Positions 23,181 to 48,665 of a DNA stretch of 64,000 nt are shown piece by piece. Location: contig NC_008255.1 of the NCBI RefSeq assembly GCF_000014145.1, positions 931,501-995,500 on the forward strand, read 5' to 3'. The position numbers and the translations under genes are program-made. The notes under the pieces are model-generated. The model was not told where the DNA came from, ran no database searches, and saw nothing but the letters and a program-made list of their open reading frames with translations. Position 1 is the first letter of the stretch. Every line of letters begins with the position of its first letter. The stretch comes from Cytophaga hutchinsonii ATCC 33406. GTDB lineage: Bacteria; Bacteroidota; Bacteroidia; Cytophagales; Cytophagaceae.

Positions 23181-23226
23181 GCCATTTAATAGTGCCGGAT
23201 TAAAAATAATACCTGGTAATGCATAT

Positions 23227-23272
23227 GTAAAACAAAAAAGGAAGACTGAAAAGTTTTCCTTTTTTGTTTTAC
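23227..23272 (+). terminator. Strong intrinsic terminator after paralogue 4
   Basis: Arms 23227-23243 and 23256-23272 give a perfect 17-bp A/T-rich stem. It can extend by 4 pairs to a GAAA tetraloop, and the 3' arm itself carries T runs. Confidence 0.85.
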
Positions 23273-23497
23273 GTGTTTTGTAATGTGAATGGAATTTTGC
23301 TGATACTGTTTGCTTAATTGTATTTTTTGAATCAACATATTTACGTGTAATTCAAAAGCGAAGCTTGTATTCTTCGTTCAATTGCAATCTTTATTAAAAA
23401 TAAATCACACAAAAATATTACATGGTGTAAAAAAACGCATTAAAACATTTAATCCTATTAATTAGTTCATTTATAGTGATTTATTATTCAATTAAAA

Positions 23498-23511
23498 TTA
23501 ACATATGTTAA
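23498..23511. promoter_or_regulatory. Putative operator palindrome TTAACATATGTTAA
   Basis: Third identical copy of the 14-bp palindrome, 111 bp before the paralogue 5 start. Confidence 0.6.
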
Positions 23512-23524
23512 TAGTGTAAAATTT

Positions 23525-23542
23525 AATATGTTCAAACATATT
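23525..23542. repeat. Short perfect inverted repeat AATATGTT-CA-AACATATT
   Basis: 8-bp arms with a 2-bp centre, 13 bp downstream of the TTAAC palindrome. It could be a second protein-binding site or a small hairpin in the leader. Confidence 0.45.
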
Positions 23543-23622
23543 TTATTACATGTGTAAAAAAGGGCTTTCTAACGTTTGTTTAAGCGTTTCGTTAGTCTGA
23601 GAAATGGTTTAAATGTAACACA

Positions 23623-26600
23623 ATGAAACATCTATTACACACAATTTTTAGATCTCTTTATTCAATAATTTATATTGAATTTTTAGGAAAAAGAAAATTA
23701 AGCGCACCGGTATTGATTCCGGTAAATGTCTTAACAGAAAAGACTCAAAAAATAAATATCCGGGGAACTGTTTTATATAAGATGCTCGGATGTTTTGTAC
23801 TTGTGACATTATTTTCAACTGTCTCTCAGGCTCAAACGTATCTTAGTCCATCAGGGAATTTAAATATTACAACAAATACAACATATTCCGGTGCAGGTAT
23901 TTATACCGGCACAACAACAGTTAAAGCTGGGGTAACAGTTATTTTCACCGGCGGAGTATCATTAAGTAATTCAGCAAAGTTTGTTATAGAAGCCGGGGCT
24001 ACAGTAATTATTAATTCAGGAGGATTTAGTACAAGCAGTTCAACAGAAGCAACAACAGCCACAGGATCTAAACTTATAATTATAGCAGGCGGTTTGAATC
24101 TGAGTAATTCATCTAAATTTACCAGTAATGGTGCATTGGCCGTACGCGATGGAGGCTTGAGTATCAGTTCTTCAGCAACACTTGGTTTGTATGGATTAAA
24201 TCAGGATACGATCAGAGGGGCCGTTTCATTGAATAACTCAACAACAACAACCATTGATACAGGGGTTGAATTATATATAGATGGAGATATTACGAGTACA
24301 TCATCTGCCGGCATGGCAGTGAATGGAAATGTTGCTGTTGATGGAAATTATCAATCCTGGAATTCTGCTAAGATTACAGGTACAGGAGATATAACAACAA
24401 CAGGATCTATGAATGCTGGAGGCAGCAGCACAATTTTCGGAGTCAATCCGTATAGCTGCAGCGGACCTGATTGTAATGGACGTAATTCATGCGGACGAAC
24501 CATTACCGCATCTACACCGTCAACCGGAGTATGTTTAAATTCATCCGTAATACTAACAGGAGTATTGAGCGGGTCGGGGACAAAAGCATATCAGTGGCAA
24601 GTAAGTACCACTTTAGGCGGTACATATTCTAATATCACAGGCGCAACATCAAGTACTTATACCTTTACAGCAACTGCTGCCAGATATTATAAGGTTAGAA
24701 TAACAGTTTCAGGTTGTGCATCGACAAGTAATATAATACCGATAACCATAAATACGCCGGCTGTGGCACCTGCTGCAATTACAGGCAATACTTCTATTTG
24801 TGCAGGAGAATCTACAACATTAACTGTGAGCGGCGGTAACTTGGGTACAGATGGATCGGCAGTATGGTATGATGCAGCTTCTTGCGGAAGTTTTATACAA
24901 AACTGGACAAGCCAGCCTTATGCAACAATAAGAACAACTGTAAATGGTGCGAACGGAATTTTGAATGTAACATCAGCATTTGATTCCTGGATTGAAATGT
25001 ATGGGTTGGGAACATTTAATCCGAATATTTACAAATACATTAATATCCGTTACCGCGTGAATTCAGGAGATGCACAAGCTGTACAGATGTATTTTACAAA
25101 TGCTACTTACACAACAGCAAACGAAAATGCAGTAGTAGTTAGTCCTTTAATCAGTGACGGGAACTGGCAGGTACTTACAATTGATATGTCTACGCATCCG
25201 CTCTGGACTTCATCAACCGTAACAGGCTGGAGATATGATTTTGCATCCGGAGTTGCCAATATGGATATTGATTATATTTCACTGACAGCAAAGCCTGCCG
25301 GTGGAAACAACGGTACACTTTCCTCTACCTTTAGTCCTTTGGTTACAACAATATACCAGGTTCGATATGAAAGTGTATGTAATTTTACTACTTGCCAGGC
25401 GGTAACAATAACGGTAAATAGTCCTGCAACAGCAGTAGCCGGAAGCGACATCTCAATGTGTGCGGGATCAACAGCTGTGCCTATTATAGCAGGGTCAAGC
25501 GCAGCAAATACGAGTGGAATTACATGGACTTCAAACGGAACGGCAGGCACAATCAGCGCGCCTACTTCTTTAACAAACGCAAAATATACGCCAAGTCCTG
25601 CGGATATTGCAGCAGGCAGCAGAACGGTAACGTTAACCGCAACAGGCCAGGGAGCTTGTCCGAATGTTACGTCAACAAAAACAATAACGATTATATCGTC
25701 TCCGGCTGCAATCGGTACGCTTACAGGTACAGCTACAGTATGTAAAGAGCAAACAATTACGTATAGTATTCCTTCCGTTGCAAATGCTGCAAGTTACAAC
25801 TGGACAGTTCCAACAGGTGCTGCCATTACCGCAGGTACCGGTACAACATCTATTACAGTTTCCTATGCAGGAGCATCGGTGACTTCAGGGTCAGTTTCTG
25901 TAGATGCTATAAATACCTGTGCAACTACATCAAAAAGTTTAGCCATAACAATCAATAATACCTGTGCAAACAGCTGGATCGGAGTTACAAGTACAGATTG
26001 GAATACAACATCAAACTGGAGTCTTGGTATGATTCCATCAAGTGCACATGATGTGATGGTTCCGGCTTCAACACCGTTTTCTCCAACGGTTTCCGCTACA
26101 GCTAACGTAGCGTCCTTTACAAATAACAATACACTGACTGTAGCTTTCGGAGCAATATTGAATGTATATGGCAATATTACAAACAACAGCAATGTAAGTC
26201 CTGCAAGCGGTTCAACGGTAGCGTTTAAAGGGAACAGTGCACAGACAGTAAGCGGTGTTCCGGTATTGTACAATGTACAGGTAGCAAATACGTCAGGCGG
26301 TGTAGCCTTATCTTCAGCTGTTACAGTCAGAGGCACATTGACATTGACAAGCGGTGTGCTTACAACAAATTCAAACCTTACGGTCAATTTTGATACTGGC
26401 GGTAATATTGCGTACAATTCAACAGACGCAGGAAGTATCAGTGGCAGTGTAACCGGCCGCAGAGATGCGATAGCACGTACACATTATATCGGTGCACCTT
26501 TCAATGGCGTAACTTCAGCGCAGGTTGGGGCAACCACACCATTGTATTATAACAATTACTGGAAAATGTATGCAAAGAATTTTGCCAACCAAGGCTGGTT

Positions 26601-27708
26601 AGCAGTAACAGACGCCACTACGGCAATGTCTCCTGGTACAGGATATTCTCTTGCATTACCAAATGCAGCTTCGTTGATTTTTACGGGTACCTATAGCCAT
26701 AGCTATACATTACCGGGAGCAACGTACTCGAATGCGGCAGCAGGAAAATATATCCTGATAGGAAATCCGTATCCATCTACACTGGATTGGAATAAAGCAT
26801 CCGGCTGGACAAAAACAAATGTTGCGAACGCTGTTTATTACTGGGATGCTGCAGGGAACAAAGTATCTTCTTATGTGGCAGGTGTAAGCACTAATGGAGG
26901 TACACAATATATACCCGCTATGCAGGCGTTCATGGTAACAACAACCGGTACAGGCGGAAGCAATTCAAGTGTTGCGATTAATAATAACGCACGTTTGAGT
27001 ACGCAGAATCCATCCTTCTTACGTACAGGTGCCGATGAAACGATCCGTATTAAATTAACAGGTGCAAATGCAGAGCAGTGGGATGATGCTGTAATTCGCT
27101 TCAATGAAATGGCAACTACAGCATTCGATACCGATTGGGATGCTTACAAAATTCTGAGCCGTGGCCCAAGCCCGTTGGTATATACAACACTTGGAGAGGA
27201 TATTTATTCCATTAACTCAGTAGCAGAAGCTGCTTCACTTCCAGCAGTAGATGTCCTGGTATATATTCCTGCAGATGGTAATTATACCTTAACGATAACA
27301 AACAGTGATCCAACCACTGATTACATATTGATAGATAAAAAATTGGGTACAGAAAATCTTTTATCCGGATCAGATTATAAGTTTAGCGGTGCAGGTACAG
27401 ATGCTGCAGATCGTTTCCAACTTCAGTTGCGTACAGCAGTAACTACAGGGACGCAGCTATCACAGAAGGGTAGAGGGCTTCAGATTGGTTCAGCAACAAA
27501 AGGGTTTGTCATCCAGACAGATCAGTTTGCCGGTAATGCAGCAGGTATTGAAATTATGGATATGAATGGAAAATCGATAAGCGTATTTACAAGCAACCTT
27601 AGTGCTGCTGCCACATACGTGCCGGTAGAACTTGCAGATGGTGCGTATCTGGTTAAGGTAACTGTTGAGGGCAATACGTTTGCTGGTCTGATCAGCCTGA
27701 TAAAATAA
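23623..27708 (+). CDS. Giant secreted T9SS cargo protein, paralogue 5 (1361 aa), with a nested CBM-like domain
   Basis: A roughly 50-residue n-region precedes the signal core MLGCFVLVTLFSTVSQA (cleavage near residue 70). A solenoid-like N-terminal block ends in IFG..YSCSGPDCNGRNSCG. Ig-like domain 1 is at about 300-385. A second Ig-like domain (starting ICAGESTTLTVSGG) is interrupted at its SCG loop by a jelly-roll-like insert of about 140 residues (about 421-560, including YINIRYRVNSG and DGNWQVLTIDMSTHPLW) and then resumes at GGNNGTLSSTFSPLVTTIYQV. The insert resembles the beta-sandwich modules appended to glycan-active enzymes, so glycan binding is a reasonable inference. A further Ig-like and one PKD-like unit (YNWTVPTGAAITAG) follow. 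The W..NWS block starts at about 783, the GRRD / NPYPSTLDW module at about 945 and the T9SS sorting domain at about 1285-1361. Confidence 0.87.
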   Translation: MKHLLHTIFRSLYSIIYIEFLGKRKLSAPVLIPVNVLTEKTQKINIRGTVLYKMLGCFVLVTLFSTVSQAQTYLSPSGNLNITTNTTYSGAGIYTGTTTVKAGVTVIFTGGVSLSNSAKFVIEAGATVIINSGGFSTSSSTEATTATGSKLIIIAGGLNLSNSSKFTSNGALAVRDGGLSISSSATLGLYGLNQDTIRGAVSLNNSTTTTIDTGVELYIDGDITSTSSAGMAVNGNVAVDGNYQSWNSAKITGTGDITTTGSMNAGGSSTIFGVNPYSCSGPDCNGRNSCGRTITASTPSTGVCLNSSVILTGVLSGSGTKAYQWQVSTTLGGTYSNITGATSSTYTFTATAARYYKVRITVSGCASTSNIIPITINTPAVAPAAITGNTSICAGESTTLTVSGGNLGTDGSAVWYDAASCGSFIQNWTSQPYATIRTTVNGANGILNVTSAFDSWIEMYGLGTFNPNIYKYINIRYRVNSGDAQAVQMYFTNATYTTANENAVVVSPLISDGNWQVLTIDMSTHPLWTSSTVTGWRYDFASGVANMDIDYISLTAKPAGGNNGTLSSTFSPLVTTIYQVRYESVCNFTTCQAVTITVNSPATAVAGSDISMCAGSTAVPIIAGSSAANTSGITWTSNGTAGTISAPTSLTNAKYTPSPADIAAGSRTVTLTATGQGACPNVTSTKTITIISSPAAIGTLTGTATVCKEQTITYSIPSVANAASYNWTVPTGAAITAGTGTTSITVSYAGASVTSGSVSVDAINTCATTSKSLAITINNTCANSWIGVTSTDWNTTSNWSLGMIPSSAHDVMVPASTPFSPTVSATANVASFTNNNTLTVAFGAILNVYGNITNNSNVSPASGSTVAFKGNSAQTVSGVPVLYNVQVANTSGGVALSSAVTVRGTLTLTSGVLTTNSNLTVNFDTGGNIAYNSTDAGSISGSVTGRRDAIARTHYIGAPFNGVTSAQVGATTPLYYNNYWKMYAKNFANQGWLAVTDATTAMSPGTGYSLALPNAASLIFTGTYSHSYTLPGATYSNAAAGKYILIGNPYPSTLDWNKASGWTKTNVANAVYYWDAAGNKVSSYVAGVSTNGGTQYIPAMQAFMVTTTGTGGSNSSVAINNNARLSTQNPSFLRTGADETIRIKLTGANAEQWDDAVIRFNEMATTAFDTDWDAYKILSRGPSPLVYTTLGEDIYSINSVAEAASLPAVDVLVYIPADGNYTLTITNSDPTTDYILIDKKLGTENLLSGSDYKFSGAGTDAADRFQLQLRTAVTTGTQLSQKGRGLQIGSATKGFVIQTDQFAGNAAGIEIMDMNGKSISVFTSNLSAAATYVPVELADGAYLVKVTVEGNTFAGLISLIK

Positions 27709-28144: not shown

Positions 28145-28170
28145 TTGGATATGTTGGGACGTTATATTTG
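28145..28170 (+). promoter_or_regulatory. Possible Bacteroidetes-type promoter of paralogue 6
   Basis: TATATTTG at 28163-28170 matches the -7 element TAnnTTTG, with a TTG at 28145-28147 upstream. The 15-bp spacing is shorter than usual, so this is tentative. The transcript leader would be about 15 nt. Confidence 0.35.
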
Positions 28171-28191
28171 CAGCAGTTATTTAGAACGACT

Positions 28192-31100
28192 ATGAAAAAA
28201 AATTACCAGCGTGTTTTTAAGGTTTTATCAATAGCTTTATTTACCCTATTTTTAAATTATCAGGCATTTGCTCAACCCAATTGTGCTACAGGTATGGTTC
28301 CGCTGAATGGAGGTACCATTGTAAATCCTACTACACCTTTTACATGGAATGCTCCTACAGGAACGGTTACCGGGTATAGAATATACATAGGTACAACTGC
28401 AGCATCAAATGAACTGGTAAACGGTACAAGTGTAACAGCTACTACTTATACCTATACAGGCGCATTGGCCTGCGGAACTACCTATTACTGGAAAGTTGTT
28501 CCGTACAACGGTTCGGGTCCGGCAACAGGTTGTGCCGCACAAACCTTTACAATCATTGCATCTGGTAACTCGTCCATTTTTCCGGTAGGGTCATGGAATG
28601 CATATTGTTTCAATTCTACTAACTGGACAAACTATACCGGATATTATACCGCAACCGGACAGGATTTTAATTCTACATCCAGTTGGGGAGCCAACTATTC
28701 TCCTTCTGTAATTTCACCCAATGGTGCTGCTGGCTATCAAGGCTGTAGTGTACCGAATGACAACCATTCTGTGATATATAAAAGACAAGGTTTTACAGCT
28801 GGTACCTATTCATTAGACGTAATAAATGATGATGGTTGTTTTTTATATCTGAATGGGAATCTGATTTATTCACGGAACACCTATACAGCTACTTTTATAA
28901 ATAATGTCTGGACGGGGAATCTGGACGCGAGTTCGCAAATAGAATTCCGGTGGGCAGATACCGGAGGAGGGGGATCTTATGGAGGCATAACATTTAACGC
29001 TATTCCTACGCCAACATTAATAGCCGGGGCAATTTCCGGAGATCAGACCATGTGTCCGGGCAATGATCCATATGTATTCAAAAATGTAACACCTGGTTCA
29101 GGAACATGCGGTCCGTTGGTATATCAATGGCAGCAGAGCGTTGGCTGTACAGGTACGTTTTCAGACATTGCTTCTGCAACAAATGCTACGTATGATGTGC
29201 CGGCTGGTATCACACAAACTACATGCTACAGACGTGCTGTTGTTGACGCAAATTGCAATAGAATAGAGTATACCAATACCGTTACAGTAACCATTACTTC
29301 TGTACAGCAGGGTAATCCAGCTGTGTTTCCGTTGAATACATGGAATGGATATGTATATGATTTTAACGTTACGGGTTATACCGGAGCAGATGATAACTGG
29401 ACAGATTATAAAGGATTCTTTTCTTATGCTGGTACATCAGCATCTGATCCGGGCTTTTATACTTCCACAGGTATTTATTCTTCCGCTTCACCACCGTCTT
29501 CAGCACCCGGGTATGTTGGTTGTCAGGTAACGTATCCATTGAGCGGTGTACAATTTAAACGCCAGGGCTTTACTCCCGGCATCTATCAGATTGATTTTGA
29601 TGGAGATGATGCCAGTTATTTATACATTAACGGAGTATTGATATACGGAAGAACAGCATGCTGTAATGTGGTTTCAAACGTCTGGACAGGTATTCTGGAT
29701 GCATCTTCAAAGATCGACTATCATTATAAAAATAACGGAGGAAATGGTTTTGGCAGATTGATCATTACTGCGGTAACACCTGCACCCATAGACCCGGGAA
29801 GTATTGCAAGTTCAGCTTCTTCTGTAATTTGTTCCGGAGATACTCCGCCGCCATTTACATCAACAGCAGTATCCTCAGGAGGCTGTACAAGAGCCGGCTA
29901 TCAGTGGCAGGCAGATGCGGGCAGTGGTTTTGCAGATATTCCGGGAGCGACCAATACAACCTATGCAGCAACAAGTGTAACAGCAACAACATCATACAGA
30001 AGAAAAATTACGGATATATGCGGTACCGTAGCATATACAAATACAGTTACATTAACAGTAGGTACGCCTTCATTGCCAACACCAGCATTCGGAAGCAATG
30101 TGTGGAATGCATACGTATATAATTTTGCAGTTACAGGATATACAGGTGCAGATGATAACTGGACAGATTATAAAGGATATTTTACATATAACGGTCTTTC
30201 CTTTAATACCGGATCAATATATGGTAACAGTATTGCTCCTTCATATGCACCAGGTTATTATGGCTGTCAGGTAGGGCAGACTCAAAGCGGTGTGCAGTTA
30301 AAAAGACAAGGCTTTCCTGCAGGTACCTATCAGATTGATTTTAATTCAGATGATGCCGGATATCTGTATGTTAACGGTGTATTGGTGTTTGGCAGAACAG
30401 GATGCTGTACAACAGTACCAAACGTATGGACAGGAAATTTAGATGCATCATCAACTATTGATTACCATTACAAGAATAACGGTAGTTCAGGATATGGTGT
30501 CTTATCCTTTACGCTGGTAACGCCTACACAACCGCTGGATCCGGGTATTATCGCCAATAATAATTCCACTACAGTTTGTTCCGGCAATACGCTTCCTCCT
30601 TTTGTTTCAACAGCAGATGCAACCAGCGGATGTTACGTGTATTATGAGTGGGAAAGAAATACAGGATCTGGCTGGAATGCCATTGCAGGTGCAACAGCAT
30701 CAACCTATACAGCAAGCAGCATAACAGTTAATACTTCCTATCGACGTAAGGCGACAGATGCCTGCGGAGCAGTAGATTACTCAAATATTATTGTAATTAA
30801 TGTAGGCACATACACACCGGTTACGCCAACGTTTGGTGCTGATTCGTGGAATGCGTATGTATATAATTTCAGCGCTGGTAACCCTACTGGTAATGGAGGC
30901 TTCACTGTTGCAAATACAGGGTGGAGTAATAATTCAGGAATGTTTCAGACTCCGGGTATTTCAATTGTTAATCCGGGTTTTAATACCAATAGTTTATATA
31001 ATTCCAATGATGCACCTTCTTTTGCAACCGGTTATCAGGGATGTCAGGTAGGTACAACATTAAATGGTGTAATCTTTAAACGCCAGGGTTTCCCGGCAGG

Positions 31101-34100
31101 AACCTATCAGATTGATTTCACATCTGATGATCCCGGCTACTTGTATATAAATGGTATAGTGGTTTCTTCCAGAACAGGAGCCGGTACAACGCTGAATGCA
31201 TGGACTGGCGTATTGAATGCTTCTTCTACGGTAGAGTTCCGTTATAAAAATAATGGCGGGCCGGGAAGTGCAATCGTCACATTTACAGTTATAACCAGTA
31301 CAACACCATTAAATCCAGGAACAATTTCAGGGACACAAACAATTTGTCAGGGAACTGCTCCAAGTGTTTTGTTAAATACATTAAGTGCTACTTCAGGGTG
31401 TTCTATAACATATAAGTGGCAAAGTTCAACAGTTTCAGCTACTGGTCCATGGACAGATATCGTAGGTGCTGCAAGCCCTTCTTATTCTTCACCTGCTCTT
31501 ACACAAACAACACATTTCCGGCGTGCTGTAACAGATGGTTGCGGGGCAAGTGATGCAACACCTGTAAGAACAGTTACAGTAAATCCATTGCCTGATGCTG
31601 CCGGTACAATTACGGGACAAACGACATTCTGCCCGAATCAGGCAGGAGTTTCATATAGCATTGCATCTGTAAATAATGCGACAGGCTATAACTGGACCTT
31701 GCCAGCAGGAGCAACAATAGCATCGGGTGCAAATACAAATTCGATAACAGTAAACTTCGGAACGACAAGCGGTAATATTGGTGTTACACCTACAAATTCC
31801 TGTGGAAATGGAACCGCCGCTCCTGCACTGGCCGTAGCAGTTACTCCATTGCCTGCTAATGCCGGCACATTTACAACTTCTTCGGCAACAGTATGTGCCG
31901 GGCAAGCCGGTGTGGTATATACAATCGCAGCGGTAACCGGAGCAACATCATATGCATGGGTCGTTCCTTCAGATGCTACGATAACATCGGCAACAAATAC
32001 AAATTCAATTACAGTTACCTTTGGTACTGCAGCAGGCAGCGTTAGTGTTACACCAACAAATTCATGTGGTACAGGTAATTCAAGAACCATTACAGTGACT
32101 GTTAATACCGTTCCTGCAGCAGCCGGTGTTATGACAGGCTTGTCAGATGTGTGTAAACCGCAATCAGGTCTTTCATACAGCATTGCTGCTGTAACAGGTG
32201 CCACAAGTTATTCATGGACAGCACCTTCAGGCGTTACGTTTACAGGTGGAACTACCCGTTCTATTGTTGCTAGCTTTACAGCTTCGAGTGTAAGCGGTAA
32301 TATGGTTGTTACACCAATAAATGCTTGCGGGAACGGAGTATCTACAACATATGCTGTTGCCGTATCATCTGTACCGCCATTAGCTGCAGGCACGATATCA
32401 GGACCTGCTTCAGCCTGTGCGGGCTCCATTGGTCTGGTATACAGTGTTGGAGCTGTTACAGGTGCAACGGGCTATAGCTGGACAGTACCAACCGGTACCG
32501 TAATCACATCCGGGCTTAACACAAACTCCATTACAGTTACATTAGGATCAGCATCAGGCAATTTCAGGGTAACACCTACAAATGCCTGTGGAAACGGGAC
32601 ATTAAGTGCTGCATATCCAATAATTGTAAATCCATATCCGGGTACTGCCGGAACCATTACAGGAAATACATCCGTATGTGGCGGTACAAGCCAGTCATAT
32701 AGTATTGCAGCAGTTTCCAATGCATTGGGATATACCTGGACGCTGCCTTCCGGAAGTACTATCACAACAGGGGCAGGCACCAGAAGTATTACAGCAACAA
32801 TGGGTACTGTGTCAGGAACTGTTACCGTAACACCTACGAATGGCTGCGGCGATGGAACATCTAATTCAGTCGCTGTAACGGTTAGCGTTCCCGCAGGTGC
32901 TGCCGGTACAATTTCCGGCCCGGCTGAAGTATGTAAAGGCGCAACTGGTATTATTTACAGCATTGCTGCTGTAACACCAGCACCAACAAGCTATAACTGG
33001 TCATTGCCATCTGGTACAATTATTACCGCAGGGGCCAATTCTAATTCTATTACAGTCACGATTGGTGCAAATTCCGGTACAATTACTGTAACTCCTACGC
33101 ATACATGTGGTAATGGAGCAAGTGCTTCACTGCCTATCGCAGTTTCTGCTTCAATTCCAGCCGCCGCCGGAACAATTACAGGAAATACAGCGGTATGTGA
33201 TGGTGCTACAGGTGTTACATATAGCATTCCTGCAGTAACAAGAGCAACAAGCTACAACTGGATAGTGCCTGCAGGCTCAACCATCACAGCGGGTGCCGGT
33301 ACGAATTCCATTACTGTTACAGTTGGATCAACATCAGGAACTGTTTCGGTAACACCGGTTAATGCGTGCGGGAACGGAACGGCAGCTACAAAAGCAATGA
33401 CAGTGAGTACTGTACCTGGTGCAGTAGGCGCTATTACAGGATCTGCAACGGTATGCAAAGGACAGACAGGAGTAACATATAGTATTGCTGCTGTATCCGG
33501 AGCTACAGGTTATACCTGGACACTTCCAACCGGGGCGTCAATTACAGCCGGATCAGGAACCGCTTCTATTACCGTTTCATACGCGGCGCATGCTACGGTA
33601 TCGGGTACATTAAGTGTTGATGCAACAAATTTATGCGGAACAACATCAAACAGTATTGCGGTTACAGTTGATAATGCATGTCCGTATACTTGGACCGGTG
33701 TTACAAGTGTAGATTGGAATACAGCCAGTAACTGGAGTTTGGGATATGTGCCGACAAATATCAATAATATTGTAATACCAACCGGTACGCCTTTTGCGCC
33801 AACAATATCTGCAGCAACAAGTACTGCTGCAGCGGTTACAATTAATTCAGGCGCAACAGTAACAATTGCTGCTGCCGGAACATGGAATGTATATGGTAAT
33901 TTAACGGATAATGGAGCTGTAAATGCGCTTGCCGGATCTACACTTGCATTTAAAGGTACTGCCGCACAGACAGTAACAGGAGTGCCTGTAGTATACAATG
34001 TTCAGGTAAATAATTCCGCAGGAGTTTCGATAGCATCACCCATGCTGGTTAAAGGAACACTTTCATTATTGAATGGTGTGTTGACGACTAACTCAAACCT

Positions 34101-35442
34101 TACCATGAATTTTGATACCGGCGGTAATATTGCATACGCGGTATCAGATAACGGAAGTATCAGCGGGGTTGTAACAGGACGGAGAGATGCAATTGCACGT
34201 ACCCATTATATAAGTGCCCCGTTCAACGGTTCTACATCGGCACAGGTTGGTGCAACAACACCATTGTATTATAACAACTATTGGAAAATGTACACGAAAA
34301 CATTTGACACCCAAGGTTGGGCAGCTGTAACAGATGCCACAACAGCAATGCCTTTGGGTACAGGGTTTTCATTAGCCATTCCAAATAGTACGTCACTCGT
34401 ACTTACCGGAACATATAACCATAATTTCTCTTTCCCGGGAATCAGCTATTCAAATGCAGCAGCGGGTAAATACATGCTTATAGGTAACCCATATCCTTCT
34501 ACGCTTGACTGGACAACCATTTACGCAAGTGCAGTAAATACCGGAGGTGCGGTTTATTACTGGAATGCAGCAAATAACCAGGTTGCAAGCTGGATTGCAC
34601 CTGCCAGCGGTACAAACGGCGGAACCAAATATATCCCGGCAATGCAGGCATTCATGGCTACAACAACAGGTACCGGCGGTCCTACATCCATTGTTTCAAT
34701 TAATAATAATGCGCGTATCTTAACAAATCAGTCTTATTTCAGAACAGCGCAGGAAGATATTTCAACGCTTAAACTATATGTGAAAACTGCCGATGGAGTT
34801 AAGGATGAAACAATTATTAATCTCAATGAGTCTGCTTCAGAAGAATTTGAATTTGATAAAGATGCATATAAAATTATAAACGGGGGACTTACACCTTCTT
34901 TATATTCAGGAACAAATACAGACGCAACACTTTACTCTATTAACGCGCTTCCTGTAAATGCCGAACAGACTATACCATTGAATCTGAAAGTTCGCGTAGA
35001 TGGTACTTATGAAATCCATTGCAGTGAATTTGTTAATCAGACAGGTTATAAACTATTGCTTGAAGACAAATCAGCGAATACATTTATGCCTGTAGATACT
35101 TCATTGACCTATGTTATAACAGCCAAGGCTACAGATAACGCAGATCGTTTTGTATTGAGATACATAGCAAATCTATCAACAGATATTTTATCAGATTCGT
35201 ATAAAGGAATTGACCTTTCAACATACGATAACAATCTTATGTTGCTGGTGAAAGCAATTACAGCAGATGGGGTAAACATGGAAGTGTATAATGCGGCAGG
35301 TAGTCTGGTTCAGTTACTTCCAAATCAATCTGTAACACCTGGAGTAAAAATGATTCCATTAGAAGGGTTAGCATCAGGAGTTTATTTGGTGAAATTTACC
35401 ATAGGTGATGTGCCATACACAGGAAAAGTTGTAATTAAATAA
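28192..35442 (+). CDS. Giant secreted T9SS cargo protein, paralogue 6 (about 2416 aa): PA14-like and PKD-like repeats
   Basis: The ATG at 28192 starts a clean signal peptide (MKKNYQRVFK.., cleavage after AFA near residue 27); a TTG 24 bp upstream is in frame but less likely. The order is a fibronectin-III-like domain (about 28-125), then four PA14-like modules (about 126-273, 373-528, 630-775 and 878-1035) marked by KRQGF.AGTYQIDF and SDD.GYLYINGV. Ig-like domains carrying a Y-x-W motif (QWQ, EWE or KWQ) alternate with them. Eight tandem PKD-like units follow (about 1134-1830), then the W..NWS block (about 1832), the GRRD / NPYPSTLDW module (about 1993) and a T9SS sorting domain (about 2340-2416) ending GVYLVKF..GKVVIK. 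PA14 domains often bind glycans, so a carbohydrate-binding surface protein is inferred. It lacks the cysteine cluster of paralogues 1-5. No clear terminator follows it. Confidence 0.9.
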   Translation: MKKNYQRVFKVLSIALFTLFLNYQAFAQPNCATGMVPLNGGTIVNPTTPFTWNAPTGTVTGYRIYIGTTAASNELVNGTSVTATTYTYTGALACGTTYYWKVVPYNGSGPATGCAAQTFTIIASGNSSIFPVGSWNAYCFNSTNWTNYTGYYTATGQDFNSTSSWGANYSPSVISPNGAAGYQGCSVPNDNHSVIYKRQGFTAGTYSLDVINDDGCFLYLNGNLIYSRNTYTATFINNVWTGNLDASSQIEFRWADTGGGGSYGGITFNAIPTPTLIAGAISGDQTMCPGNDPYVFKNVTPGSGTCGPLVYQWQQSVGCTGTFSDIASATNATYDVPAGITQTTCYRRAVVDANCNRIEYTNTVTVTITSVQQGNPAVFPLNTWNGYVYDFNVTGYTGADDNWTDYKGFFSYAGTSASDPGFYTSTGIYSSASPPSSAPGYVGCQVTYPLSGVQFKRQGFTPGIYQIDFDGDDASYLYINGVLIYGRTACCNVVSNVWTGILDASSKIDYHYKNNGGNGFGRLIITAVTPAPIDPGSIASSASSVICSGDTPPPFTSTAVSSGGCTRAGYQWQADAGSGFADIPGATNTTYAATSVTATTSYRRKITDICGTVAYTNTVTLTVGTPSLPTPAFGSNVWNAYVYNFAVTGYTGADDNWTDYKGYFTYNGLSFNTGSIYGNSIAPSYAPGYYGCQVGQTQSGVQLKRQGFPAGTYQIDFNSDDAGYLYVNGVLVFGRTGCCTTVPNVWTGNLDASSTIDYHYKNNGSSGYGVLSFTLVTPTQPLDPGIIANNNSTTVCSGNTLPPFVSTADATSGCYVYYEWERNTGSGWNAIAGATASTYTASSITVNTSYRRKATDACGAVDYSNIIVINVGTYTPVTPTFGADSWNAYVYNFSAGNPTGNGGFTVANTGWSNNSGMFQTPGISIVNPGFNTNSLYNSNDAPSFATGYQGCQVGTTLNGVIFKRQGFPAGTYQIDFTSDDPGYLYINGIVVSSRTGAGTTLNAWTGVLNASSTVEFRYKNNGGPGSAIVTFTVITSTTPLNPGTISGTQTICQGTAPSVLLNTLSATSGCSITYKWQSSTVSATGPWTDIVGAASPSYSSPALTQTTHFRRAVTDGCGASDATPVRTVTVNPLPDAAGTITGQTTFCPNQAGVSYSIASVNNATGYNWTLPAGATIASGANTNSITVNFGTTSGNIGVTPTNSCGNGTAAPALAVAVTPLPANAGTFTTSSATVCAGQAGVVYTIAAVTGATSYAWVVPSDATITSATNTNSITVTFGTAAGSVSVTPTNSCGTGNSRTITVTVNTVPAAAGVMTGLSDVCKPQSGLSYSIAAVTGATSYSWTAPSGVTFTGGTTRSIVASFTASSVSGNMVVTPINACGNGVSTTYAVAVSSVPPLAAGTISGPASACAGSIGLVYSVGAVTGATGYSWTVPTGTVITSGLNTNSITVTLGSASGNFRVTPTNACGNGTLSAAYPIIVNPYPGTAGTITGNTSVCGGTSQSYSIAAVSNALGYTWTLPSGSTITTGAGTRSITATMGTVSGTVTVTPTNGCGDGTSNSVAVTVSVPAGAAGTISGPAEVCKGATGIIYSIAAVTPAPTSYNWSLPSGTIITAGANSNSITVTIGANSGTITVTPTHTCGNGASASLPIAVSASIPAAAGTITGNTAVCDGATGVTYSIPAVTRATSYNWIVPAGSTITAGAGTNSITVTVGSTSGTVSVTPVNACGNGTAATKAMTVSTVPGAVGAITGSATVCKGQTGVTYSIAAVSGATGYTWTLPTGASITAGSGTASITVSYAAHATVSGTLSVDATNLCGTTSNSIAVTVDNACPYTWTGVTSVDWNTASNWSLGYVPTNINNIVIPTGTPFAPTISAATSTAAAVTINSGATVTIAAAGTWNVYGNLTDNGAVNALAGSTLAFKGTAAQTVTGVPVVYNVQVNNSAGVSIASPMLVKGTLSLLNGVLTTNSNLTMNFDTGGNIAYAVSDNGSISGVVTGRRDAIARTHYISAPFNGSTSAQVGATTPLYYNNYWKMYTKTFDTQGWAAVTDATTAMPLGTGFSLAIPNSTSLVLTGTYNHNFSFPGISYSNAAAGKYMLIGNPYPSTLDWTTIYASAVNTGGAVYYWNAANNQVASWIAPASGTNGGTKYIPAMQAFMATTTGTGGPTSIVSINNNARILTNQSYFRTAQEDISTLKLYVKTADGVKDETIINLNESASEEFEFDKDAYKIINGGLTPSLYSGTNTDATLYSINALPVNAEQTIPLNLKVRVDGTYEIHCSEFVNQTGYKLLLEDKSANTFMPVDTSLTYVITAKATDNADRFVLRYIANLSTDILSDSYKGIDLSTYDNNLMLLVKAITADGVNMEVYNAAGSLVQLLPNQSVTPGVKMIPLEGLASGVYLVKFTIGDVPYTGKVVIK
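28570..31295 (+). repeat. Four PA14-like modules alternating with Ig-like domains inside paralogue 6
   Basis: The units lie at roughly 28570-29010, 29310-29775, 30080-30515 and 30825-31295. Each contains W-N-A/G-Y, G-x-Q/S-V, KRQGF, an I/L-D-x-x-x-D-D turn and Y-L-Y-I/V/L-N-G. Modules 2 and 3 are the most alike (YTGADDNWTDYKG in both). Confidence 0.75.
31591..33680 (+). repeat. Eight tandem PKD-like units (about 260 bp each) inside paralogue 6
   Basis: Each unit of about 85-88 residues has the pattern G-x-I-x-G, Cys, YSIAAV, Y-x-W-x-x-P-x-G, N-S-I-T-V, V-T-P-T-N-x-C-G-N-G. One Cys lies near the start and one near the end, perhaps a disulfide. DNA-level variation between units is clear, so this is an old protein-domain array, not a short tandem repeat. 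Confidence 0.85.
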
Positions 35443-35636: not shown

Positions 35637-35876
35637 ATGAAAATGTATAAAATTGTAATGTTTTTATTATTCACGTTAAATGTATCCTTTAATACATTTG
35701 CTCAGGATTGCGGAACATTGCCTCCATGCACAGGAGATGGTTGGGAAATTCCAGGTACAAACTGTTGTAACAATGTGACTGTTCCGTTTGATGGTGGAAT
35801 AAGCTTATTGCTTGCAGCTGGTCTTGGCATTGGAGCCAGAAGTGTTTATAAAAAAAGAAAACAGACTGCATCGTAA
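35637..35876 (+). CDS. Small exosortase-substrate protein with PFDGG (PID-CTERM-like) sorting tail
   Basis: 79 aa. A signal peptide covers residues 1-22 (cleavage after FNTFA). Residues 23-49 form a tiny mature stretch with four cysteines (C25, C31, C43, C44). The end is a tripartite sorting signal: P50-F-D-G-G, a hydrophobic helix ISLLLAAGLGIGA, and a basic tail (RSVYKKRK). This is the layout of PEP-CTERM-type signals, in the Bacteroidetes form usually written PIDGG. The exosortase gene starts within 20 bp downstream, so this is almost certainly its dedicated substrate. After both cleavages the exported peptide would be only about 27-30 residues long. Its role is unknown; a structural peptide, a maturation tag or a linker to the polysaccharide are all possible. 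Recognition of the tail is strong; function is inference. Confidence 0.85.
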   Translation: MKMYKIVMFLLFTLNVSFNTFAQDCGTLPPCTGDGWEIPGTNCCNNVTVPFDGGISLLLAAGLGIGARSVYKKRKQTAS

Positions 35877-35894
35877 ATAGTGCATCAGTATTTA

Positions 35895-36443
35895 ATGAAT
35901 CTATTAGACTCTGGCACAAAAAAAATACTCATTATATTTATTAAGACACTTGGTATATACACGATACTAAGTGTCTTTTTTTATTGTTATGAAGGCCTTG
36001 TAGACCAACAGGGGAAATACTATTCGCCTTTTCTGGATCAATACAGCATCATAAAACTTATTCTGAATTTATTGATATACCCCCTGGTATGGATCTTGAA
36101 AATTCTGGGTTATACAATCTCGGTTCATAGCCCCTCTGTTTGGGTAGGAGCAAGCGGTGTTACAATTTTAACACCTTGTTTAGGTATACAGATTATGATT
36201 GGTTATGTTTCATTGATTTTAGGTTTTCCCGCTGCAAAAAAACTGCTTTTTCTAATCGCCGGACTCGTTCTGATTCATTTGCTCAATATCGGGCGCATGT
36301 TATCCATTTTACTGACAATTGAAAAGCATCCTTCCGTTATCGATATTTCACATGATATTTTTACATACCTCAGTTATGCAGCAATTTTAGTACTGTATTA
36401 TGTTTGGGTAAAAAACTATTCGGATATTGAAGTAACCGGTTAA
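35895..36443 (+). CDS. Short Bacteroidetes-type exosortase (transpeptidase-like membrane protein)
   Basis: A multi-pass membrane protein of 182 aa from the ATG at 35895 (a GTG at 35880 would add five residues). About five or six hydrophobic helices are visible. The exosortase triad is present in the expected order: C95 in TPCLGIQ, R134 in LNIGRM and H153 in ISHDIF. Exosortases cut PEP-CTERM-like tails in the inner membrane and are thought to transfer the protein to another molecule. At about 180 aa it matches the short exosortases of Bacteroidetes (XrtF/XrtX/XrtY kinds), rather than the roughly 280-aa EpsH type. The precise subtype cannot be fixed here. It sits between its probable substrate and the polysaccharide export genes, as exosortases of Gram-negatives often do. 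Confidence 0.87.
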   Translation: MNLLDSGTKKILIIFIKTLGIYTILSVFFYCYEGLVDQQGKYYSPFLDQYSIIKLILNLLIYPLVWILKILGYTISVHSPSVWVGASGVTILTPCLGIQIMIGYVSLILGFPAAKKLLFLIAGLVLIHLLNIGRMLSILLTIEKHPSVIDISHDIFTYLSYAAILVLYYVWVKNYSDIEVTG

Positions 36444-36577
36444 CGATTTTTTCGGCCTGCTGAAAATAGAATCAGAAAACAGCTGCTCATTTCAGATGAA
36501 TGGAGGCTAGTATCTCTCAGAATTATAACTTAAATTACATTGGAATAACTATTTTAAACGTTTTTGTTTCTAAACAA

Positions 36578-37339
36578 ATGAATAATCGTACTTCATTATA
36601 TATAAAATTTCTTATCGGTTCTTTTTTATTGCTGGCGGGTTCATGTATAGGGTATAAAAAGACGTTATACTTTCAAGGTGCAGCGGAAACATTGCCGCCA
36701 CCAAAGCTAACACAAACATATACGTTACGGGTACACGACATTGTTCAGATTAAAATCGCAAATCCGGATGCCGAAAATCCCGCAGTATTATCCGGAGAAC
36801 AAGGCAACATCCAATCTAACGTTGCGGATGCGTATTTTAGAGATTATTATATCAATGATTCGGGCTATGTTGAACTGCCGGTTATAGGCAAACTAAAACT
36901 TGTTGGTTACACCATTTTTCAGGCTGATTCATTAATAGCGAAAAAGGCTGTTGAATATTACAGCAATGTTACTGTAGAAGTTAAATTAGCTTCGTTTAAA
37001 TTCATGGCACTTGGAGAATTTACAAAAGCAGGCCTTTGTTTTGTATCCAATGAAACATGTACCATTTATGAAGCAATAGCAATTGCCGGAGATGCTACCG
37101 ATTTTGCGAATAATCAAAAGCTGCAGCTTATACGAACGTTAGAAGATGGAAGTAAAAAAATTTATCATATAAACCTGACAGATTATTCTTCCTTTACTTC
37201 CGATAATTATTACCTGCAGCCAAACGATATCCTGTATCTGCAGGCACAAAAAGCAAAAGTTGACAAGCAAAACATAACCTATATATCGATTGCATTGTCT
37301 GCAGCATCATTTATACTATTGCTTTTAACAAGAATTTAA
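36578..37339 (+). CDS. Wza-like outer-membrane polysaccharide export lipoprotein
   Basis: The ATG at 36578 is preferred: it gives a lipoprotein signal (MNNRTSLYIKFLIGSFLLLAGSC, shown to C23). A longer frame from 36500 would bury this signal. The 253-aa product has the polysaccharide export (Poly_export) block (YTLRVHDIVQIKI, then DSGYVELPVIGKLKLVGYT) and a SLBB-like segment (FMALGEFTKAGLCFV). A C-terminal hydrophobic helix (ISIALSAASFILLLLTRI) is probably the outer-membrane span. Wza-type proteins form the outer membrane exit channel for capsule or exopolysaccharide and work with a Wzc-like co-polymerase, which is the next gene 22 bp downstream. Confidence 0.9.
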   Translation: MNNRTSLYIKFLIGSFLLLAGSCIGYKKTLYFQGAAETLPPPKLTQTYTLRVHDIVQIKIANPDAENPAVLSGEQGNIQSNVADAYFRDYYINDSGYVELPVIGKLKLVGYTIFQADSLIAKKAVEYYSNVTVEVKLASFKFMALGEFTKAGLCFVSNETCTIYEAIAIAGDATDFANNQKLQLIRTLEDGSKKIYHINLTDYSSFTSDNYYLQPNDILYLQAQKAKVDKQNITYISIALSAASFILLLLTRI

Positions 37340-37361
37340 AAGACTTATTTGTTTAGAAATA

Positions 37362-39764
37362 ATGACTGAATTAGAAGAAGAGAAGGATCTTATTGACTTT
37401 AAACAATACATTAGAATTTTATCGAAATATTGGTATGTAGTAGGGCTGATATTGATTTTTTCTATGGTATTTGCCTATTATAAAATAAGGTATTCAACAC
37501 CGATATACATGGTTAAAACCACTATGCATATCAAAGATAAATCTTCCTATTCATACGGCAGTAAATCCTTTTTAGAAGGATCCTCCATGTTCCAGCCATT
37601 CAAAAACTTAAAAAATGAAATGGAGCTGATCAGGTCTTACAATCGAATTCAACTGGTTGTAAAGGAGCTGGATTTTATGTGGGAGTATCGTGTTAAAGGC
37701 AAGATCCGTGACATAGAATTATATAAAACGAATCCAATTGAAATCGTTTGTGATTCAGGATTGATTGTAACCAATTACCCATTACTGATTACCATACAGA
37801 ATGAAGATTACTTTACATTAACCGCTAATGGTGGAATGTATAGATTGTATGATCCTGTATCAAATACGTATGTAGACACAATTATTTCTATTAAAAGAGA
37901 TGAAAATGTTAAATACAGGTTTGGGCAGAATATTTCTTTAGGCGGTTTATTTAACTTCAAGATCAATAAAACCCAGCACTATCATGCAAATGATAATAAC
38001 ATTCAGTTTACCATAAATGCACGCGATTTACATTCACTCACCAAAGAATATAAATACAAAGTTGTAGTTACGGAAAATGAAAGATCGTCAATTATAACAA
38101 TCTCTTCTTCCGGTTCCATTATACAGAAAGAAGTAGCTTTCTTAAATAAGCTATCTGAAGTATATGTGCGAAAAGAATTAGAAGATAAAAATCAGATTGC
38201 GAACAACACCATCAACTTTATCGATTCGCAACTCAAAGTTATTTCGGACTCTTTAAATAACACCGGGAATGAAATTGAATCGTATAGAGAGAAAAATAAA
38301 ATTTATAATTTTGAAGAACAATCCATTGGTATTATTACTCAATTGAATGGATTGGAAGGTAAAAAATTAGAAGCCGAATTGCAGCTTAGGTATTATGAAT
38401 ATCTGAAAGGTTATCTGAATACAGATAAAGAATTAACTGACCTGGTAGCGCCTTCAACAATCAATGTTGAAGATCCGGTATTGAATCAATTAGTTGCTCA
38501 GCTTGTAACATTGTATCAGCAGAAAAATACGCTAAAGTATAGCAGCAGCGAAAAAAGTCCTGCGTATCAAACATTATTAATTCGTATCAAAACAACCAAA
38601 GACGCACTTTTAGAAACAACGAATAATTTAGTAAATACCTCCAGATCATCTATCAACGATCTGGATAAGAGAATTTCAAAAGTAGAAATGCAGATGTCTT
38701 CCATTCCTTCTCAGCAAAGGAAGCTTATTAATATTGAAAGAAAACATACTATCAATGATGAAATTTATAATTATTTATTACAAAAAAGAGCTGAGGCAAG
38801 TATTGCCCGTGCATCAAACCTGCCGGATGCCTTTACGGTGGAAAGCCCCTTAGACGACGACTATGTGCAGATAGCACCTACGGTTAATAAAATTTATACA
38901 ACGTATATATTAGGAGCTGTTGGCCTGATTGTTTTTTTAGCTGTGATATATGGTAAGATTGATAATAAAATTCATACAAAAGAAGATATTATAAAACGTA
39001 CGGATGTTGCTGTGCTGGGTACTGTTGGCCTCACCGGAAGCGACAGTATTGAAAAGCTTGTTCACTCCGGACACGGATCGCTTACAGAAAGTTTCAGGTC
39101 TATCCGTACAAATCTTCAATTTGTTCTGCAAGGTAAAAAGACCTTCATGATTGGTGTTACTTCCTGTATAAGCGGAGATGGCAAATCATTCTGTTCCCAT
39201 AACCTTGCCCGTATATACGCAATCAGTGGTAAAAAGACGCTATTGATACGCGGTGATATGCGCAAAGCATTTAACGCACCAGCCAATTTAATTCCACAGG
39301 GCTCAATGGGCTTAAGCCAGCATTTAATTGGCATGGCTACCATAGATCAGATCATTCATAAAGGAGAAATTGAGAATTTATACCAGATCATTCCCGGCCC
39401 AGTACCGCCCAATGCTTCTGAGTTAGTCGCTTCACAAAAAATGGAAGAATTTATCCGGATAATGAAAGATAAATTCGAAGTGGTAATTATGGATTCTCCG
39501 CCTGTAGGTTTGGTTTCCGATTATATGTCTGTTATAAAACATATAGATGCGAACCTGTATATTGTGCGGTACGATTACACACCTAAGGAAACGTTGGAAG
39601 CAATTAAAGATCTTAAAAATAAATATCCGGCCCAATCACATTCAATCATTTTCAATGGTATTACAGCAAGGCTGTTAAGTAAATATTCGTATTACGGCAA
39701 TCCCGTAGAATATGGGTATGAGCCGGCTTTAAAGAAAAAATGGTGGCAATTTTTTTCTAAATAA
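37362..39764 (+). CDS. Wzc-like polysaccharide co-polymerase / BY-type tyrosine autokinase
   Basis: 800 aa. TM1 is at about 28-48, with a Wzz-type N-terminus. A large periplasmic coiled-coil region (about 265-465) is followed by a second TM near 515-533, then the cytoplasmic kinase domain. Walker A is SGDGKS with K608. Walker B is VVIMDSPPVG. The C-terminus holds a tyrosine cluster (KYSYYGNPVEYGYEP), the usual autophosphorylation site. The Walker A' motif reads LLIRGDMRKA: the first Asp of the usual I-D-x-D-x-R is an Arg (R630), while D632 and R634 remain. Wzc proteins control chain length and export together with Wza. Adjacent genes encode Wza-like and ABC transport proteins. The altered residue may lower catalytic activity; this is not shown. 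Confidence 0.92.
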   Translation: MTELEEEKDLIDFKQYIRILSKYWYVVGLILIFSMVFAYYKIRYSTPIYMVKTTMHIKDKSSYSYGSKSFLEGSSMFQPFKNLKNEMELIRSYNRIQLVVKELDFMWEYRVKGKIRDIELYKTNPIEIVCDSGLIVTNYPLLITIQNEDYFTLTANGGMYRLYDPVSNTYVDTIISIKRDENVKYRFGQNISLGGLFNFKINKTQHYHANDNNIQFTINARDLHSLTKEYKYKVVVTENERSSIITISSSGSIIQKEVAFLNKLSEVYVRKELEDKNQIANNTINFIDSQLKVISDSLNNTGNEIESYREKNKIYNFEEQSIGIITQLNGLEGKKLEAELQLRYYEYLKGYLNTDKELTDLVAPSTINVEDPVLNQLVAQLVTLYQQKNTLKYSSSEKSPAYQTLLIRIKTTKDALLETTNNLVNTSRSSINDLDKRISKVEMQMSSIPSQQRKLINIERKHTINDEIYNYLLQKRAEASIARASNLPDAFTVESPLDDDYVQIAPTVNKIYTTYILGAVGLIVFLAVIYGKIDNKIHTKEDIIKRTDVAVLGTVGLTGSDSIEKLVHSGHGSLTESFRSIRTNLQFVLQGKKTFMIGVTSCISGDGKSFCSHNLARIYAISGKKTLLIRGDMRKAFNAPANLIPQGSMGLSQHLIGMATIDQIIHKGEIENLYQIIPGPVPPNASELVASQKMEEFIRIMKDKFEVVIMDSPPVGLVSDYMSVIKHIDANLYIVRYDYTPKETLEAIKDLKNKYPAQSHSIIFNGITARLLSKYSYYGNPVEYGYEPALKKKWWQFFSK

Positions 39765-47861: not shown

Positions 47862-48665
47862 ATGAGTGAACCAATTATTATTTCAATTCACAATTATAAA
47901 TCAGCTGGTGTTACATTTTATTCAATCATTGACAGGCAATTTAAAAAGGATGAAATTTTAAATTCAGATTTGTTAGGTATGGATGATACTTATTTAATGC
48001 TTAGTCAGGCAGATGAAAAAATAATAAATAAAATAAAAATCATTCATGGGCATTTTCCATTTGGTCTGGATAGACTTTTGCCACAAAAATCCACCTACAT
48101 TACTTTTTTAAGAAATCCCATAGAACGCCTTATTTCAGATTATTATTATTGTAAAGATTTTGCACTGGCTCATAATCATAGCTACGCATCTACAATGTCA
48201 TTTAAAGAATATTTGTCCTGCAGCGATATTTTAAATATAGATAATGGGCAGACACGTTTTGTTGCAGGCGGTGAAAACGTACCTTATGGCGATAATTCAA
48301 TAGAGATGTTAAACCGTGCAATTGAAAATATTGAGAAACGGTTTTCATTTGTTGGTATAACTGAAAAATTTGATGAATCGTTATTAATTGCAAACGCTGT
48401 TTTTTCCTGGAATCAATATTACTATACATCAAAAAATATCACCTCATCAAAGTCTTATGATTTTGATGAAGAAACCTGGGAATTGCTTCGTAAAAGAAAC
48501 TTTCTTGATTTACAATTGTATGAATACGCATTGAAAAAACATGCAGGTGATTTGAAAAAAATTCCTTATGTTAAATTGAAAATGATTCTTCTTAAGACGC
48601 TTAAATCACTGTTTGTAGTAACAAAGAGTATTTATGCACCCGTTAAAAAACGTTTTTTCAGATAA
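47862..48665 (+). CDS. Carbohydrate sulfotransferase-like protein (PAPS-dependent, sulfotransferase family 2 type)
   Basis: 267 aa, no signal peptide. The N-terminal HNYKSAGVTFYS (K13) fits the 5'-phosphosulfate loop. ITFLRNPIERLISDYYY fits the 3'-phosphate-binding motif (R-N/D-P-x-x-R-x-x-S-x-Y) of PF03567-type sulfotransferases. IHGHFPFG between them is also typical. It would transfer sulfate from PAPS to a sugar hydroxyl, in the cytoplasm in bacteria. This makes a sulfated surface glycan possible. No PAPS synthesis genes lie in the window. It is preceded by a 189-bp spacer, so it may start a sub-operon. Confidence 0.8.
   Translation: MSEPIIISIHNYKSAGVTFYSIIDRQFKKDEILNSDLLGMDDTYLMLSQADEKIINKIKIIHGHFPFGLDRLLPQKSTYITFLRNPIERLISDYYYCKDFALAHNHSYASTMSFKEYLSCSDILNIDNGQTRFVAGGENVPYGDNSIEMLNRAIENIEKRFSFVGITEKFDESLLIANAVFSWNQYYYTSKNITSSKSYDFDEETWELLRKRNFLDLQLYEYALKKHAGDLKKIPYVKLKMILLKTLKSLFVVTKSIYAPVKKRFFR

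Follow-up and report, generated by a model that had tools for sequence, protein, structure and literature searches.

The window analysed here is a stretch of 64,000 nucleotides, bases 931501-995500 of a single-contig genome of 4,433,218 bases. It contains a small gene for a PID-CTERM mini-protein and an adjoining exosortase gene, with a row of giant T9SS type A cargos upstream and a polysaccharide cluster downstream. The features, all on the forward (+) strand, are as follows:

9476-27708, +, five further giant ORFs (9476-12205, 12438-15692, 16011-19565, 20040-23180 and 23623-27708), each with a shared pre-signal module and a T9SS type A signal by profile
28168-35442, +, T9SS type A cargo of 2424 aa with eight PKD-like repeats (TIGR04183, PKD_6), the proposed partner of the mini-protein
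34288-35139, +, RemA/RemZ-type pre-CTD module of the 2424-aa cargo (HMM from another family, RemA/RemZ profile match)
35230-35439, +, T9SS type A C-terminal signal of the 2424-aa cargo (TIGR04183, residues 2355-2424)
35637-35876, +, PID-CTERM mini-protein gene, 79 aa (ORF, NF046080 match, same-genus ortholog)
35637-35702, +, predicted signal peptide, residues 1-22, with cleavage expected before Gln23 (sequence and our own heuristic)
35703-35783, +, mature stretch ahead of the sorting signal, 27 aa with four Cys
35784-35873, +, PFDGG signature, hydrophobic helix and basic tail (NF046080 matched at residues 49-73)
35880-36443, +, exosortase (XrtX/XrtY-like, by TIGR04178), 187 aa from GTG or 182 aa from the ATG at 35895
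36177-36179, +, codon of the catalytic Cys100
36294-36296, +, codon of Arg139
36351-36353, +, codon of His158
36500-37339, +, Wza-like export protein (profile match)
37362-39764, +, Wzc-like kinase (profile match)
39786-63360, +, polysaccharide cluster with an ABC-2 transporter, glycosyltransferases, an epimerase and a sulfotransferase-like gene (Pfam, on 20 of its ORFs)

The 79-aa ORF runs from a signal peptide through the 27-aa stretch QDCGTLPPCTGDGWEIPGTNCCNNVTV to PFDGG, a hydrophobic helix and a basic tail. Its tail scores above the curated cut-off of the NCBIfam PID-CTERM protein-sorting domain NF046080 (36.9 bits against 26, E 2.3e-9), and a genome of the same genus (G001) has the gene too (57.5% identity by BLAST), likewise flanked by a giant ORF and an exosortase. 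The profile match and the synteny together exclude chance, and the mini-gene at 35637-35876 is real. These data agree with the earlier note on this DNA, which had read here a substrate with a signal peptide, a four-cysteine stretch and a PFDGG-helix-basic tail adjoining its exosortase. They do not agree with its proposal of an undescribed system, as the substrate tail belongs to a named domain. A search of the available papers for the term PID-CTERM returned none; as far as we found, the pair is a member of a named, seemingly uncharacterised sorting family with no assigned role.

For comparison, 114 distinct PID-CTERM proteins were parsed from the loci of sampled Bacteroidota (115 with the window protein), and their mature lengths were estimated with a home-made signal-peptide rule that favoured Gln, in place of SignalP. 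By this estimate the median length of the mature stretch ahead of the signature is 13 aa in the 114 proteins (quartiles 11 and 19). At 27 aa that of the window protein is longer than in 104 of them, and so the released peptide is not, as had been proposed, among the smallest possible exosortase products. Under the Gln-favouring rule 108 of the 115 mature parts start with Gln; with that rule left off, 109 of the 114 have [AGS]Q at some point in residues 15-45. By the Q-rule of the Bacteroidetes, an N-terminal pyroglutamate would be expected on the mature mini-protein. Cysteine is present in just 11 of the 115 proteins and absent from the other 104. Four cysteines are seen only in the window protein and that of G001; two are found in the protein of a second same-genus genome (G002), in the paralogs of the window genome, in four relatives from the same family and in two proteins from other families, and one further protein has a single cysteine. 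Conservation of the four-cysteine stretch thus stands for G001 and fails for G002 and for most of the family, so that this core is not conserved where the gene pair is, which is largely what the earlier note had said would speak against it. Accordingly, we rejected the four-Cys peptide as a conserved functional core, as it is kept in only one of the two same-genus genomes. In a PDB search with the mini-protein the best match had an E of 0.9. Separately, tandem PID-CTERM mini-genes occur behind a single cargo in two loci (L061 1159-1584 and L133 4911-5293, oriented along the genes).

The exosortase ORF starts 3 nt behind the mini-gene. Its product is recovered by the general exosortase/archaeosortase model TIGR04178 (42.3 bits, cut-off 23). 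The best-scoring named exosortases are XrtY (NF046083, 72.9 bits) and XrtX (NF046081, 63 bits); these scores lie far under the curated cut-offs of 160 and 170, so that the window enzyme falls outside both subfamilies as defined and we do not apply either name. Against the XrtF model TIGR04128 it likewise scores under the cut-off (50 bits, cut-off 90). It has no match to the EpsH-type family PF09721 (Pfam gathering score 25.7), and its paralogs reach 22.3 and 21.3 bits with this model in the genome search, one of them 25.4 bits as a protein. The active site is retained: Cys100, Arg139 and His158 are each identical in 27 of 29 aligned exosortases, the window sequence included. This confirms the triad reported earlier as C95-R134-H153, which was numbered from the internal ATG rather than from the GTG. 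The remaining two aligned entries (L024 and L025) lack all three residues and are probably wrong ORFs chosen by our script. A single-sequence exosortase scan of the genome contigs confirmed no relative.

The same genome encodes three exosortases, and a PID-CTERM search of it gave three matches above cut-off, each adjoined by one of the exosortases found in an XrtY search. The other two pairs are on the opposite strand, at distances of ~30 and ~34 kb from the first, and differ hardly at all from one another in mini-protein, exosortase or cargo C-terminus. Each stands behind an ORF of ~1050 aa with a T9SS-type end signal, seen by profile in one and by motif only in the other (L088). The polysaccharide genes sit between the first pair and these two. 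The two units lie in tandem just past the window end (L088 3219-11610), each made up of a T9SS cargo, a PID-CTERM gene and an exosortase, and they close the polysaccharide cluster in opposite orientation.

Directly upstream of the mini-gene is the gene for the 2424-aa cargo, which is recovered by the T9SS type A model TIGR04183 (29.4 bits for the whole protein, cut-off 23). Pfam finds in it PKD-like repeats and no lectin family above cut-off. We also note that at 9476-35442 six giant T9SS type A ORFs with the RemA/RemZ-type module stand in a row with a PID-CTERM gene behind the last only. None of the five at 9476-27708 has a PID-CTERM gene of its own, and hence one mini-protein may serve the whole row.

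We then asked which neighbours of PID-CTERM genes are kept across Bacteroidota. On either side of each gene we took the closest ORF of 100 aa or more within 1.5 kb, scanned its last 120 aa and counted TIGR04183 matches at E up to 0.001. The upstream set comprised 113 ORFs (112 for the 114 parsed genes, two of which shared their ORF with another gene, and that of the window); the downstream set comprised 87, after removal of one duplicate and of genes that had no ORF within 1.5 kb or one truncated by the end of the locus. Upstream, 93 of 113 neighbours carry the T9SS signal, as against eight of 87 downstream (Fisher p 8e-27), where exosortases account for 11 of the 87. Across the sampled phylum the kept partner is therefore the upstream T9SS adhesin-like gene, which the earlier note did not connect with the pair, and not the polysaccharide cluster. 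Our own T9SS-signal HMM detects the signal in 95 of 114 upstream ORFs, every one of them encoded on the strand of its PID-CTERM gene, at a median distance of 78 nt. The background of TIGR04183 is 22 to 128 matches per genome (15 genomes).

By family, the upstream signal was found in 65 of 71 cases in f43, 11 of 12 in f1, seven of eight in f13, three of four each in f24 and f70, two of two in f62, one of one in f23, one of two each in f26 and f63, and one of four in f55, and in none of two in f41 or the single cases of f19 and f29. The linkage is hence seen in ten of thirteen sample families, and 45 of 56 genomes have at least one such pair; it is uneven across families, with f43 supplying most PID-CTERM genes. 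Among the 19 exceptions to the upstream rule, four adjoin the exosortase itself and five have a module protein downstream. Thirteen PID loci yielded no new parsed protein and stayed outside these counts. A looser re-reading of eight of them gave nine genes, some duplicates of parsed ones, of which five have signal and module upstream, three do not and one has no upstream ORF; the other five loci belong to family f41. In one f41 genome (G167) the genome-search tables place a T9SS signal just upstream of two PID-CTERM matches.

The upstream proteins have more in common than their end signal. With the last 100 aa removed, 93 of 100 remain in one BLAST cluster, and most matches among the trimmed proteins end just ahead of the removed signal. 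This region is a shared all-beta module of ~300 aa that precedes the T9SS signal in partnered cargos; their N-terminal parts vary and include PKD-like, ice-binding-like, laminin-G-like and FG-GAP regions (seven proteins). An HMM of the module, trained on 42 cargos of family f43, finds the 2424-aa cargo (81.7 bits) and the five other giants at 9476-27708, and is positive in 93 of the 95 signal-bearing upstream proteins. Of 53 partnered cargos not used for training it finds 51, and 28 of the 30 that lie outside family f43. It misses L150 and L071, the latter the same-genus counterpart of the 2424-aa cargo, which aligns with the window module at 43% identity. Against the 51 of 53, the module HMM is positive in five of 40 other T9SS cargos of the same genomes (p 8e-18), a comparison set that was hand-picked and non-random, with stronger signal scores and positions away from the listed PID-CTERM matches. 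Behind one of the five positive comparison cargos (L196) lies a degenerate mini-protein with PVGSG replacing PxDGG. Behind three others are ORFs of 37-40 aa that lack a signal peptide (G163 L184 2815 +, L199 2878 -, L208 2780 -); these share the motif W-Q-[ST]-P-x-[IL]-x-T-L-x-I, followed by T-E-Q and a Pro-containing end, and resemble leader sequences of modified peptides.

A profile of the module (A5, built with the window module included and the signal excluded) matches RemA (5.3e-30) and RemZ (1.2e-25), so that by profile comparison the module corresponds to the C-terminal part of these Flavobacterium gliding adhesins; as a single-sequence query the window module reached neither of them. 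RemA is described as a gliding adhesin in the parts of PMC10994853 and PMC12618676 used here, and PMC8481357, likewise used in part, reports an interaction of RemA with EPS in F. johnsoniae, where its overexpression aggregates cells via galactose-containing EPS. As far as the available text of PMC10994853 goes, only the signal domain of RemZ is well resolved in T9SS translocon structures. An AlphaFold model of the module (mean pLDDT 85.8, pTM 0.87) is all-beta apart from short helices. A Foldseek search with this model gave no match at E up to 0.001, and the best VIA-align hit (Z 5.2, 86 residues, rmsd 2.8, with rows mainly in residues 200-335) indicates no confident fold.

We also scanned the named genome contigs with the module, using the best 80 of 423 loci. 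In this set a strict DGG tail lies downstream of nine of 83 tested module cargos. Small proteins of the same layout with varied signatures, such as APIGSG, SPIGGG, APVGSG, PVPITG and PIPLDSS, are common downstream, and a same-layout mini-protein lies behind 28 of the 81 module cargos, picked out by the module alone, from which a tree was built. None of ten such variants reaches the PID-CTERM cut-off of 26 in NCBIfam: five have matches below it (14.8 to 23.7 bits) and five have none, and thus the named domain spans only part of the companions. These ten (L211, L212, L220, L225, L247, L253, L261, L273, L282 and L288) provide candidate unnamed exosortase sorting signals. In one locus (L226) a module cargo and a mini-protein occur outside Bacteroidota, on a contig titled Candidatus Tenebribacter (Cloacimonadota); that genome, for which completeness is not given, has no exosortase match.

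At the level of genomes, we counted PID-CTERM matches at E up to 0.001 in a sample of 395 Bacteroidota, and scored at most five module candidates per genome among the matches listed. PID-CTERM was found in 62 genomes, an exosortase in 143 and the module in 131. All 62 PID-CTERM genomes have an exosortase and 60 of them have the module. Module and exosortase occur together in 97 of the 395 genomes (p 3e-28, with phylogeny ignored and all exosortase types counted). Outside the PID-CTERM genomes the tie is weaker and remains: 37 of the 71 genomes with the module have an exosortase, compared with 44 of the 262 without it (p 1e-8, phylogeny-uncorrected). At the named module loci, exosortases were present in the genome for 22 of 27 with a mini-protein call and for 41 of 45 without one, so that this split did not discriminate; one genome stood in both groups, and four loci of the second were too short to show a mini-protein. 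In some genomes a single exosortase match stands against as many as nine PID-CTERM matches at scattered positions, which suggests a need for the mini-protein in proportion to cargo.

The partnership of the mini-gene with a T9SS cargo is thus well supported. On balance, we favour the reading that the window pair is a PID-CTERM/exosortase unit whose mini-protein is the dedicated, exosortase-processed companion of the upstream RemA/RemZ-type T9SS adhesin, and hold it to be somewhat more probable than not. Its most likely role would be that of a surface anchor or adaptor. That the 2424-aa cargo acts as an adhesin is itself presumed. The companion would be stoichiometric, because similar copies recur beside different cargos in single-exosortase genomes. 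Exosortases are expected to cut such tails near the signature and to join the new C-terminus to some compound. On this basis the mini-protein would cross the inner membrane by Sec, signal peptidase would expose its N-terminal Gln, and the C-terminal helix would retain it in the membrane. The exosortase, through Cys100, Arg139 and His158, would cut at or near PFDGG and join the new C-terminus of a peptide of ~27-31 aa to a putative lipid- or glycan-borne acceptor. At the outer surface the modified peptide could then serve the co-produced adhesin as a small anchor or adaptor, with the module ahead of the T9SS signal as the likely docking site that the peptide would contact. PMC7468200, in the part used here, also describes tail cutting and joining of the new C-terminus by exosortases. 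Counting against a companion are the five of six module giants in the window, and the 53 of 81 module cargos elsewhere (best 80 of 423 loci), that have no adjacent mini-protein. Furthermore, the mature peptides are short and variable, and so a specific binding surface is not obvious.

The same linkage could reflect a periplasmic escort, in which the mini-protein aids folding or T9SS targeting of the adhesin and the exosortase cut frees it from the inner membrane. The operon-like arrangement, the occurrence of mini-genes beside several cargos in many genomes and the large size of the cargos would all suit such a role. However, ~13 aa of mature sequence is very little for a chaperone, other T9SS cargos manage with no such partner, and a chaperone need not depend on an exosortase, yet every PID-CTERM genome has one. 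We therefore regard an escort as unlikely.

The downstream genes bear on a second alternative, the polysaccharide tag considered in the earlier note. Here the exosortase would attach the peptide to the polysaccharide made by the cluster, where it would serve as cap, tag or carrier signal, and the adhesin gene upstream would be a chance neighbour. In the window the profiles at 36500-39764 bear out the earlier observation that the pair heads a polysaccharide cluster beside Wza- and Wzc-like genes. Among the eight relatives whose exosortase matches are strongest, six (G001, G002, G008, G013, G016 and G018, compared with the window's own proteins only) have such genes in the same stretch as a pair. 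PEP-CTERM exosortases too are linked to EPS clusters, according to the parts of PMC10936215 and PMC7468200 used here. On the other hand, by the same comparison Wza/Wzc-like genes were not found in G007, in G011, whose pair sits at a contig end, or in three weaker matches (G004, G012 and G017). At 19 other exosortase loci, Wza-type families make up only three of 67 neighbour proteins scanned, out of 108 listed (a further locus, L310, gave no exosortase), and it is the adhesin-like neighbour that is general. The polysaccharide tie hence exists in the window genome, recurs regularly only among its close relatives, and was rejected as a general rule. A glycan or lipid tag may still be the chemical step; as the explanation of the pair, a polysaccharide tag appears somewhat less plausible still than an escort.

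Several other features of these loci deserve mention. Within the cluster, 47862-48665 is a galactose-3-O-sulfotransferase-like gene, which suggests a sulfated polymer, and three consecutive ORFs at 57158-61092 (291, 553 and 420 aa) have no Pfam match at E up to 1e-4. In 10 of the 19 other exosortase loci an ORF of 152-191 aa with hydrophobic stretches lies behind the exosortase. In six genomes of family f43 (L292, L293 and L295-L298) this position is taken by a homologous hydrophobic protein of ~160 aa, a single representative of which has no Pfam or NCBIfam match at E up to 1e-5.

A further possibility is that the mini-protein is a secreted peptide signal or regulator, and that its liberation by the exosortase serves as a readout or control of adhesin expression. 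Peptides that are short, rich in Pro and Gly and equipped with a processing signal would fit; as many as nine copies in a genome and similar peptides beside structural proteins are unlike a signal, and we consider this quite improbable. Passive hitchhiking, in which the mini-gene was duplicated along with cargo 3' ends with no functional tie, might account for the two near-identical duplicate units of the window genome (L001, L002 and L088) and is the least credible reading, given linkage in ten of thirteen sample families and a module tree (81 cargos; a quick method, with matches from six loci judged spurious by eye left out of the labels) in which strongly supported branches force at least seven changes of mini-protein label.

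The dedicated companion that we favour has partial parallels among known systems. The window protein resembles other PID-CTERM proteins, a family named merely as a sorting domain, in its tail signature, helix and basic end, and differs from them in its Cys-rich mature part. With the PEP-CTERM/EpsH system the pair shares a signal peptide, a short motif, a helix, a basic tail and an adjoining EPS cluster. It differs in having PFDGG in place of PEP, an enzyme with no PF09721 match and, in the window genome, one dedicated mini-substrate per exosortase. XrtF of F. johnsoniae (Fjoh_1448) is likewise a Bacteroidota exosortase, the substrates of which its authors leave to future research in the part of PMC10936215 used here. 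In T9SS type B systems, the PorP-SprF pairs also place a dedicated partner directly downstream of the cargo. That partner is a shuttle protein (PMC12618676, in part), whereas the partner in the window is an exosortase substrate beside a type A cargo. RemA and RemZ (PDB 8gl6 and 8gl8) have in common with the window cargo the T9SS type A signal and the homologous C-terminal module, and the window cargo differs from them by its PKD-like repeats. The available text of PMC10994853 mentions no PID-CTERM partner for either. That of PMC7468200 compares T9SS and exosortase systems via sugar-linkage genes and not via companion proteins. In the literature, as far as these partly available sources extend, we found no statement that ties exosortase mini-substrates to RemA/RemZ-type T9SS cargos; NCBIfam curator notes may mention a T9SS link. 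What appears to be new is this link, which points to a little-known helper or anchor system joining two secretion pathways.

Deletion phenotypes in F. johnsoniae agree with the companion model without proving it. Loss of xrtF results in less sand colonisation, much less biofilm and no zorbs, and xrtF and its associated gene share a table row with the T9SS porU and porZ deletions, as do Fjoh_0334 and Fjoh_0651, genes of other kinds (PMC10936215, in the part used here). We further offer, as a tentative extension that is distinctly less secure than the companion itself, that Bacteroidota possess a two-pathway form of anchoring, in which the RemA/RemZ-type module of a co-encoded T9SS adhesin would dock on a peptide of 10-30 aa that an inner-membrane exosortase had attached to a surface glycan or lipid, so that the adhesin would be held, or held movably, by a second attachment after export besides the usual T9SS one.

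The regular gene-level tie gives PID-CTERM mini-substrates and RemA/RemZ-type cargos a testable partner each. It raises the question of how type A adhesins stay attached to the cell surface and travel during gliding, and may explain the likeness of the F. johnsoniae exosortase deletion to deletions of T9SS attachment genes. If two-pathway anchoring were true, the anchoring of adhesins would be a main role of exosortases in the phylum.
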